From Ruminococcus sp. UBA3767 (GTDB taxonomy: Bacteria > Bacillota > Clostridia > Oscillospirales > Ruminococcaceae): DNA of 16,447 bases. Shown piece after piece: positions 13,081 to 14,924 of the stretch. The notes below the pieces were generated by a model, which worked only from the letters and a program-made list of their open reading frames with translations, did no database searches and was not told where the DNA came from. The position numbers and the translations under genes are program-made. Position 1 is the stretch's first letter; each line of letters starts with the position of its first letter. The DNA lies in contig DFFV01000069.1 of NCBI GenBank assembly GCA_002371625.1, forward strand, positions 1 through 16,447, in the 5' to 3' direction.

Positions 13081-13205
13081 CATATAGGCATGCAGGCGAA
13101 ACTGTGTCACACGAAACAGAATGCTTAATGCTGCTCGGTTCCCCGCCTGACATGGTTCACAGCGTTTCATTGCACAGGACCCGCACACCTATATCTCGGA
13201 TCGAT
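13072..13205 (-). ncRNA. ffs: Small SRP RNA (4.5S/scRNA type)
   Basis: The RNA component of the signal recognition particle, partner of Ffh. Read on the - strand, the invariant domain IV is present: GTCAGG, then CGG-GGAA-CCG (a GNRA tetraloop), then AGCAGC, within about 13120-13150. A long closing helix pairs 13180-13194 with 13082-13096 (15 bp, three G-T wobbles), and it continues after one G-G mismatch as a perfect 10-bp helix (13196-13205 with 13071-13080). The core of about 113 bases (13082-13194) is the size of the small Alu-less type. The exact processed ends are not visible. Its place directly before dnaX is the same as scRNA in Bacillus. It has its own promoter at 13253-13281. Confidence 0.93.
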
Positions 13206-13290: not shown

Positions 13291-13333
13291 AAAAAAACTT
13301 TCAGGCAGCCCGCTATTTTAAGCAAGCCGCCTG
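13291..13333 (-). terminator. Terminator after the CheX-like gene
   Basis: On the - strand CAGGCGGCTTGCT pairs with AGCGGGCTGCCTG (13333-13302) over 13 positions including G-T wobbles, with a TAAAAT loop. AAAG and a run of seven T (13297-13291) follow. The -35 box of the SRP RNA promoter begins only about 10 bases beyond. Confidence 0.85.
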
Positions 13334-13344
13334 TTTTAGCGCTA

Positions 13345-14229
13345 TTACTTATTGCAGATTATGAAATCCACTGTGCCGAACGGGAACTGCACGGGGATAC
13401 AGAAGCCTGATTTGCTGAAATCTATCGTAGTATCCTTGAGCACTTCCTGCGGGTTCATTGTAAGCTCAACACCGTACTCGTTAGACTCATTCACCGCAAA
13501 CAGTCCGTCAACTACGTTAAGGAACTCACCTATCGTAGCGTCAACGAAATCGTCTATCTCGGTAAACGTTTCCTTTGAGAATCTCTCGGCAAGGCCTTTA
13601 TATGCCTCGTCATCGGCTGCTATGCAAGCCACTGAGTTATAGCTTCCCGTAAATTCCTGCTTAACAAAATTCTTTATCTGATAATCTCTTACCATGTGCG
13701 ATTTGAGCGGTGTGAAGTCATCACCGATAAATCTGATGACATTCTTGAAAAGCAGCGTTACATAATCGGTATATATCCTTGCATTTTCAGCGCTGTCAAA
13801 ATGATAGAAATCATTTATAACTCTTGCCAGCACCTCATTCTGATTTTCGCTTATATCCTCATCAGAGAACTGCGTTTCAGCCTTATATGCATTTATAGCC
13901 TCTTCAAACTGCGAATTTGTGAGCACGCCGTTATTTACCAGCGTCTGTCCGAGCAGCAGATAATCTGTCGGCTGCTGAGAAAGCAGCTTTTCAACATCGT
14001 CGTTAGTCACATAGCCAAGCTCAACTGCGAGGTCACCAAAGCGCTTATCAACGCTCTGCTGAGTGATATTAACGTGCTCTACCTGCTGTGCTGTCATAAG
14101 TCCTGCATTTATAGCCAGAACGCCCAGACGCATACGGGTATTTTTCTTATCCTCTATTGCTGTTGTAAGGTCCTGCGAATTTACCAGGCCTTTATTGAGC
14201 AGATAACCGCCAAAAAACTGAGCAAACAT
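13345..14229 (-). CDS. CheX-like phosphatase with four MshEN-type N-terminal repeats
   Basis: The 294-residue protein has two parts. Residues 5-116 hold four repeats with an exact 29-residue period: the first Gly of each is G7, G36, G65, G94 and the second G14, G43, G72, G101. Repeats 2 (R34-Q57) and 3 (R63-Q86) fit the RLGxxLxxxG...Q pattern of the MshEN domain, a cyclic-di-GMP receptor made of two 24-residue motifs with a 5-residue spacer. Residues about 150-294 resemble CheX/CheC CheY-P phosphatases; the expected ExxN pair is E235-N238, with P260 at the expected distance. The start ATG abuts the receiver stop (TAAATG), with AAAGGAG 8-9 bases upstream. Likely job: signal-dependent dephosphorylation of the neighbouring receiver. 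Ligand binding and phosphatase activity are inference. No motility gene is in the window. Confidence 0.78.
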   Translation of the reverse strand: MFAQFFGGYLLNKGLVNSQDLTTAIEDKKNTRMRLGVLAINAGLMTAQQVEHVNITQQSVDKRFGDLAVELGYVTNDDVEKLLSQQPTDYLLLGQTLVNNGVLTNSQFEEAINAYKAETQFSDEDISENQNEVLARVINDFYHFDSAENARIYTDYVTLLFKNVIRFIGDDFTPLKSHMVRDYQIKNFVKQEFTGSYNSVACIAADDEAYKGLAERFSKETFTEIDDFVDATIGEFLNVVDGLFAVNESNEYGVELTMNPQEVLKDTTIDFSKSGFCIPVQFPFGTVDFIICNK

Positions 14230-14610
14230 TTACAAAACTCCTTTCGCAGCGTTCTCGAGGATCTTCTTAGCGTCCTCGTCTGTTATTGGCTTCTGAAGGA
14301 AATCGGCAGCGCCTGCTTTGAGAGCGTCCTTTAAATGTCCCTGAGTACCAACGGAAGAAGCCATAACTATCTTAGCATCGGGATGCTTTGCAATAATAGC
14401 CTTGAGCGCATCTATTCCCGTTACCTTAGGCATGATGATGTCCATAAAAACAACATCGGGGTCGCACTCATCGTATCTTTCGATAGCCTCAGCACCGTCA
14501 GCGGCTTCAAATATCTTGCCTACGCCCATTGCGGCGATAGCCATATTCAGCTTTTTGCGTGCGAACATTGAGTCGTCGCATATCAGAACAGTAAGATCCT
14601 GTAATGTCAT
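14230..14610 (-). CDS. Stand-alone CheY-like response regulator
   Basis: A 126-residue receiver domain with no output domain. The acidic pocket D12-D13 (CDDS), the phosphoacceptor D57 (VVFMDIIMP), S85/S86 (VMASSVG) and K107 (FLQKPI) are all present, so it should be phosphorylated by a histidine kinase encoded elsewhere. Stand-alone receivers act by binding a partner, as CheY does on the flagellar switch. Here the obvious partner is the CheX-like protein directly downstream, translated from an abutting ATG. The start is supported by AGGAGG 8 bases upstream. Whether it serves chemotaxis or another process cannot be told. Confidence 0.92.
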   Translation of the reverse strand: MTLQDLTVLICDDSMFARKKLNMAIAAMGVGKIFEAADGAEAIERYDECDPDVVFMDIIMPKVTGIDALKAIIAKHPDAKIVMASSVGTQGHLKDALKAGAADFLQKPITDEDAKKILENAAKGVL

Positions 14611-14647: not shown

Positions 14648-14676
14648 ATTATACCACAAAATCAAACAAAAATCAA
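14648..14676 (-). promoter_or_regulatory. Promoter for the receiver/CheX-like operon
   Basis: On the - strand TTGATT (14676-14671) and TATAAT (14653-14648) are 17 bases apart, and TGG precedes the -10 (extended -10). The start would be near 14641, giving a leader of about 30 bases with the AGGAGG site. Confidence 0.82.
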
Positions 14677-14839: not shown

Positions 14840-14924
14840 CGGGGAATGGCGGAATTGGCAGACGCACATGACTCAAAATCATGCGCCGCAAGGCATGAGG
14901 GTTCAAGTCCCTTTTCCCCGACCA
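14840..14924 (+). tRNA. tRNA-Leu (anticodon CAA)
   Basis: An 85-base class II tRNA. The acceptor stem CGGGGAA (14840-14846) pairs with TTCCCCG (14914-14920), followed by A and an encoded CCA (14922-14924). The anticodon stem CATGA/TCATG flanks loop CTCAAAA, with anticodon CAA at 14874-14876, reading UUG. The long variable arm (GCC-GCAA-GGC) is typical of leucine tRNAs. The T loop reads TTCAAGT. Confidence 0.96.

Follow-up and report, generated by a model that had tools for sequence, protein, structure and literature searches.

Cyclic di-GMP (c-di-GMP) usually connects with chemotaxis phosphorelays through the motor, the kinase or a receiver that binds the messenger. Here we analyse two adjoining genes of Ruminococcus sp. 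UBA3767, contained in a 16,447-nucleotide stretch of contig DFFV01000069.1 (the window), which encode a CheY-like receiver and a fusion of four MshEN-type repeats with a CheX-type domain. MshEN consists of two 24-residue motifs with a 5-residue spacer (Wang 2016, PMC5013675) and, according to section 12 of that paper, is found with REC, with CheA and with the phosphatase CheX. In CheX, a passage of PMC3035606 gives an Asn and an acidic residue an active-site role. The reading we favour, with moderate confidence, is that the fusion protein would dephosphorylate the receiver, that its repeats 2 and 3 would form one c-di-GMP site and that the messenger would tune the duration of the receiver signal. 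A first-pass annotation of this DNA had proposed a similar link; it is supported by the MshEN-type repeats, the predicted CheX fold, the partner receiver and a GGDEF-bearing host genome, whereas the two messenger sites it envisaged are not supported.

The receiver and the fusion protein

14230..14610, minus strand: CheY-like stand-alone receiver, 126 amino acids (aa; PF00072, 86.6 bits)
14440..14442, minus strand: codon of the predicted phosphoacceptor Asp57 (from sequence; kept in 72/72)
14238..14244, minus strand: ribosome-binding-site-like AAAGGAG of the fusion gene, within the receiver gene (from sequence)
13345..14229, minus strand: MshEN-repeat/CheX fusion protein, 294 aa (open reading frame, profile matches, AlphaFold2 model)
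14146..14217, minus strand: repeat 1, residues 5-28, degenerate (F at position 1, K at position 24)
14059..14130, minus strand: repeat 2, residues 34-57, motif I of the predicted c-di-GMP site (R34, G36, Q57)
13972..14043, minus strand: repeat 3, residues 63-86, motif II of the predicted c-di-GMP site (R63, G65, Q86)
13885..13956, minus strand: repeat 4, residues 92-115, degenerate (L at position 1, Y at position 24)
13348..13788, minus strand: CheX domain, residues 148-294
13516..13527, minus strand: E235-x-x-N238, predicted phosphatase active-site pair

The two genes lie head to tail on the minus strand, the receiver directly upstream of the CheX-like protein as first annotated. The TAA stop of the receiver abuts the ATG of the fusion gene, with AAAGGAG 8 nt 5′ of that ATG, and related pairs likewise overlap or abut, stop and start codons being no more than a few bases apart in 25/25 loci listed (L033-L057).

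The receiver has its whole active site: the acid pocket D12/D13, the predicted phosphoacceptor D57, S85 and K107. D12, D13, D57 and K107, together with S or T at position 85, occur in 72/72 receivers adjoining fusion copies, a number that pools overlapping sets, reaches the same genomes via different searches and counts the window's copy. Its closest relatives of solved structure are chains that bear the name CheY (best 4.9e-24). Four relatives (G030, G037, G044 and G048) each have another receiver match at a distance of about 1 kb from a CheX-like frame; these frames are 375-457 aa long, and one scores above the CheX cut-off and three below. We read them as FliY-type, and flagellin is present in the three such relatives tested (G030, G044, G048). 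The CheY-named structures and the receiver matches near FliY-type frames make a CheY descent of the receiver likely.

The C-terminal half of the fusion matches PF13690 (CheX) at 32.2 bits against a cut-off of 27 and is predicted to adopt the CheX fold in an AlphaFold2 model of all 294 aa (mean predicted local distance difference test, pLDDT, 90.7; predicted template modelling score, pTM, 0.82), as the first reading of the sequence had supposed. Of three distant homologues scanned, two score under the PF13690 cut-off (20.5 and 18.2 bits). Position 235 is E in 18/20 and D in 2/20 distant homologues, and position 238 is N in 20/20; a larger alignment of 118 gives E in 79 and D in 39 at the former and N in 118/118 at the latter. 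E235, N238 and P260 had been put forward together as CheX/CheC residues: the first two are conserved, whereas P260 is P in only 15/20 distant homologues and is thus no firm signature.

The N-terminal half holds four 24-residue motifs with 5-residue spacers, starting at residues 5, 34, 63 and 92. The period of 29 first reported is confirmed, and so are R34/G36/G43/Q57 and R63/G65/G72/Q86. Against a relaxed 11-position MshEN motif (Wang 2016) repeats 1-4 score 10, 10, 11 and 10 of 11, while the next-best position in the protein scores only 7; the in-register sum of 41 was reached by 0/2000 shuffles of the protein. The NCBIfam c-di-GMP motif model NF053729 gives 76.6 bits against a cut-off of 38 (E 9.1e-22, over three stretches) and matches 18/18 members of a diverse alignment, the window's own counted. 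Motif scores, profile and the structure overlays described below bear out the MshEN-type assignment.

One or two putative sites for cyclic di-GMP

From residue conservation, it is likely that repeats 2 and 3 form one central c-di-GMP site. Repeat 2 has R or K, G and Q each in 20/20 distant homologues, and repeat 3 has them in 19/20, 20/20 and 20/20; the full set in both motifs is found in 117/118 and 101/120 homologues in two alignments. A profile search of the PDB returned PilF (2.5e-9) and MshE (8e-6), the latter aligned on repeats 2 and 3, which is also where the structure overlays place it. The predicted structure has these two repeats as an MshE-like four-helix unit, with repeats 1 and 4 as putative caps. 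The MshEN family calls for hydrophobic residues at positions 17 and 21 of both motifs; V50, V79 and L83 are hydrophobic, and position 21 of motif I is the polar N54.

The earlier proposal of four motifs making two sites is not supported by these residues. A strict test, under which each of the two motifs must carry R/K, G and Q, is passed by repeats 1 and 2 in 0/238 homologues and by repeats 3 and 4 in 0/238. A softer test additionally admits a hydrophobic residue at position 1, as PilF allows; repeats 3 and 4 pass it in none, and repeats 1 and 2 in 1/120, 49/118 and 11/20. Relatives often have Q at position 24 of repeat 1, unlike the window, whose repeat 1 ends in K28, so that repeats 1 and 2 fail even the softer test here. 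We reject two sites for the window on residue conservation and on the structural register on repeats 2 and 3; some relatives in which repeats 1 and 2 pass could have a further site or a shifted one.

Several observations weigh against this reading of the repeats. The NCBIfam profile does not single out repeats 2 and 3: the best of its three stretches is 63-112 (repeats 3 and 4), and a genome scan scores residues 6-53 (repeats 1 and 2) at 38.4 bits and 34-86 at 37.1 bits. Isolated PilF domains match repeats 3 and 4 by sequence, weakly (E 0.015 and above), and the passes of repeats 1 and 2 with a hydrophobic position 1 in 49/118 and 11/20 relatives belong here too. The VIA overlays give one alignment per entry, so their placement on repeats 2 and 3 is no comparison among repeat pairs. 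The Pfam MshEN model PF05157 has no match in the fusion protein at E up to 10 (in PilB of the same genome it matches residues 59-144, after the motifs), and the repeats are therefore not classed as a full MshEN domain with a C-terminal subdomain. Foldseek with residues 1-128 returned no E below 0.001, the fragment model having a pLDDT of 74.7. The helix before repeat 2 spans 30-41 in that fragment model and starts at 35 in the full model; near-consensus PilF GSPII-A is a non-binder, partly from an extended first helix, as a passage of PMC12002112 states. Finally, position 21 of repeat 2, N54 here (N/H in 18/20, L in 39/118), is in MshE a Leu contacting guanine.

Two positions drew our attention in the distant homologues: residue 54 (14068-14070, repeat 2 position 21) is N or H in 18/20, and residue 115 (13885-13887, end of repeat 4) is Y or F in 20/20. 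To judge by sequence, both may bear on ligand choice or coupling.

Might the repeats have lost nucleotide binding altogether and serve as a protein-interaction scaffold? The flanking repeats are degenerate yet conserved (Y115 is kept in 120/120 homologues), N54 stands in place of the contact Leu and GSPII-A of PilF offers a natural example of a domain that does not bind. Among the most strictly conserved positions, however, are those that touch the ligand in MshE and PilF, and they lie in repeats 2 and 3; we regard a scaffold as rather improbable.

Conservation and genomic setting of the pair

Six full-length matches in named contigs have 91-95% identity, four labelled Ruminococcus and two labelled uncultured Clostridiales or Clostridia; these labels are our basis for assigning the class Clostridia. 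The fusion is present in 26/29 genomes of the same genus and in G030 of the same family, and the receiver adjoins it in 27/27; in the three genus genomes without the fusion the receiver was not found either (E up to 1e-15). A class-wide survey found the full-length fusion in 20/391 sampled genomes, with two copies in G146; these carriers belong to 8 families. Adjacency is near-universal: 19 of the 20 copies besides the window's have an adjoining same-strand receiver, 9 before and 10 after the fusion. The first-pass claim of a partner receiver thus gains weight, and a gene order that changes while adjacency is kept argues for a shared function. One 418-aa chain, P0227 (known from two contigs), unites the repeats with CheX and the receiver. 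Homologues of the fusion are also labelled Lysinibacillus and Natronobacillus. A second candidate receiver fusion, P0079 (470 aa, one contig), was not used, its extra tail showing no receiver motif by eye; frames of 565-580 aa in G189, G040 and G030:C18 match the repeat part only, were read as MshEN ATPases and were left out of the fusion counts.

The pair goes with chemosensory genes. CheW occurs in 20/20 class-wide carriers versus 155/391 genomes overall (hypergeometric P 4e-9, a value that ignores kinship), and within the family in 26/27 carriers and 3/10 non-carriers. The window's own genome (G000, 84% complete) encodes a CheA with Hpt, P2, dimer, kinase and CheW domains, two CheW, one methyl-accepting chemotaxis protein (MCP), CheR and CheB, the survey of the last two covering this genome only. 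It also has 16 GGDEF matches, which makes the c-di-GMP link suggested at first pass plausible in this host.

We can sketch how the pair may work. CheA of the same genome would donate a phosphoryl group to the receiver, and the CheX half is predicted to strip it. Binding of c-di-GMP in the central site might shift the caps and the linker (residues 116-147), altering the access of E235 and N238 to the receiver. We lean tentatively towards a ligand that raises phosphatase activity, in which case high c-di-GMP would damp chemosensory output; the effect could have either sign. Alternatively, the receiver could be a phosphate sink for CheA that the phosphatase empties, and not an output. It has no output domain, and CheA carries the P2 receiver-binding domain. 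We think this quite unlikely, since G007 and G015, two genomes of the genus that are 99% complete, have no receiver frame below 200 aa but this one, which leaves no other obvious single-domain output there. Other receiver frames below 200 aa are found in G022 (121, 185 and 195 aa) and in G000 (138 aa, near a contig end).

A survey of 52 selected genomes bears on the nature of the output. No flagellin match was found in 29/29 genus genomes or in 2/2 genomes of a sister genus; flagellin is present in 17/17 carriers outside the family and in G030. The flagellated carriers would suit an ordinary flagellar CheY-P phosphatase whose N-terminus is incidental, an explanation that we find very improbable: 26 of the 29 genus genomes, all without a flagellin match, keep the pair. 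G030, moreover, encodes besides the receiver of the pair another CheY-like frame, situated about 1 kb from a distinct CheX-like frame that scores just under the cut-off. The repeat half is also better conserved than the CheX half, with mean column entropies of 0.85 versus 1.52, 1.53 versus 2.05 and 1.68 versus 2.19 in three alignments. For the window's genus, flagellin-free yet keeping the pair, we reject an ordinary flagellar CheX. The chemosensory set of this genus is pared down, with one MCP match in 27/29 genomes, CheW in 28/29 and flagellin in 0/29.

Type IV pili are another candidate target. A 19-kb stretch of the same genome encodes an MshEN pilus ATPase, a second T2SSE ATPase that we read as PilT, a prepilin peptidase and a GGDEF-EAL protein. 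The pilus ATPase is the sole other protein of this genome, as far as it is complete, above the c-di-GMP-motif cut-off, and the GGDEF-EAL protein lies about 2.6 kb beyond it; c-di-GMP and pili are thereby linked in this genome. The repeats could then bind c-di-GMP and merely position the phosphatase at a pilus or chemoreceptor, with catalysis unchanged. This we consider unlikely, as the genes for receiver and enzyme are coupled, and in P0227 fused, which points to action on the partner. Pilus ATPase, PilT-like ATPase and GGDEF-EAL protein are found at L101:8113-14057 (G000, C77); the motifs of that pilus ATPase have P and M as their first residues and Q and R as their last, and by eye are less canonical than repeats 2 and 3 of the fusion.

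Returning to a phosphatase tuned by c-di-GMP, our guess, made from gene content, is that the output in the flagellin-free genus would most likely be type IV pili or some other process at the cell surface; in flagellated carriers it may be the motor. Some genomes fit this picture poorly: G001 (85% complete) carries the pair without a CheW match; G016 (98% complete), G017 and G019 have CheW and MCP but neither gene of the pair; no receiver lies within 1.5 kb of fusion copy L130; and the carriers outside the family are flagellated (17/17), the pilus link being one of gene content only. Pili of R. albus bind cellulose, according to a passage of the review PMC13234629. More tentatively, we hypothesize that a single c-di-GMP bound between the second and third repeats of this four-repeat sensor would switch the CheX phosphatase and so directly set the lifetime of the CheY phosphate, that in flagellin-free Ruminococcus this would feed a one-receptor pathway steering type IV pili, the cellulose-holding organelle of R. 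albus, and that the polar N/H conserved in one half-site would allow a mixed ligand such as cyclic GMP-AMP (cGAMP).

In G041 (L103:7753-10488, C38), a 911-aa CheA has a weak mid-protein match to the c-di-GMP motif (26.2 bits, below cut-off). MshEN with CheA is named in the cited section of Wang 2016 (PMC5013675), and in other lineages the kinase may be the point at which c-di-GMP feeds into this pathway.

The remaining features of the locus are the following:

14648..14676, minus strand: promoter-like site 5′ of the receiver gene (consensus match only, 10/12 positions; weak)
13302..13333, minus strand: terminator-like hairpin 3′ of the fusion gene (13 pairs; weak)
14840-14924, plus strand: tRNA-Leu (CAA)
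13087-13186, minus strand: small signal recognition particle RNA (RF00169, 64.2 bits), just before the open reading frame read as dnaX

The scan gave 6 promoter-like sites against 3.9 expected and 2 terminator-like hairpins against 1.6 expected, hence the weak grading of both. The hairpin after the fusion gene suggests one two-gene transcript. No c-di-GMP riboswitch was found in the window (Rfam, gathering scores). The 580-aa frame with a GTG start that we read by eye as dnaX overlaps the signal recognition particle RNA, so its real start is likely further in; this gene and the tRNA-Leu offer no hint to the function of the pair.

Comparison with described systems

Besides Wang 2016 we found no paper pairing MshEN with CheX, and among the papers listed none, judged by title and abstract start, deals with a c-di-GMP-controlled CheX or with a test of the fusion; subscription papers and supplements lay outside the search. 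The first-pass remark that this fusion is not a characterised system therefore holds as far as characterisation goes, whereas the association of the domains was already printed in 2016 (PMC5013675, section 12). New here are the anatomy (four repeats with one likely central site), the near-constant receiver, the receiver fusion and the flagellin-free setting. The pair is widespread, small and, as far as the literature search shows, uncharacterised, which makes it amenable to a test with two purified proteins. It also opens a path to the role of chemosensory signalling in rumen Ruminococcus that lack flagellin.

The fusion resembles V. cholerae MshE in motif length, spacer and key residues. It differs in having four motifs in a row, a likely site that is central and no Pfam MshEN match, and in being joined to CheX rather than to an ATPase. 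In Thermus thermophilus PilF, the c-di-GMP-bound GSPII-B overlays fusion residues 34-89. Outside the window's genus, the fusion family commonly has a Lys at motif position 1 (107/118); passages of PMC11731258 and PMC12002112 report that Lys at this position binds tighter than Arg in GSPII-B. The PilF GSPII domains, unlike the fusion, each have their own C-terminal subdomain and are located on a motor ATPase.

With CheX (T. maritima 1squ/1xko; B. burgdorferi CheX-CheY-BeF3 3hzh) the fusion shares the predicted fold and the E/D-x-x-N pair. The solved CheX chains are listed at about 150-160 residues and lack repeats, whereas the fusion has them. The Caulobacter Cle proteins, CheY-like c-di-GMP effectors, likewise connect c-di-GMP to a CheY-type output; there the receiver itself reportedly binds the messenger, whereas in the pair described here that role would fall to the partner phosphatase. 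A c-di-GMP site built into a phosphatase would be a different joint, at which the messenger would set the duration of the signal.
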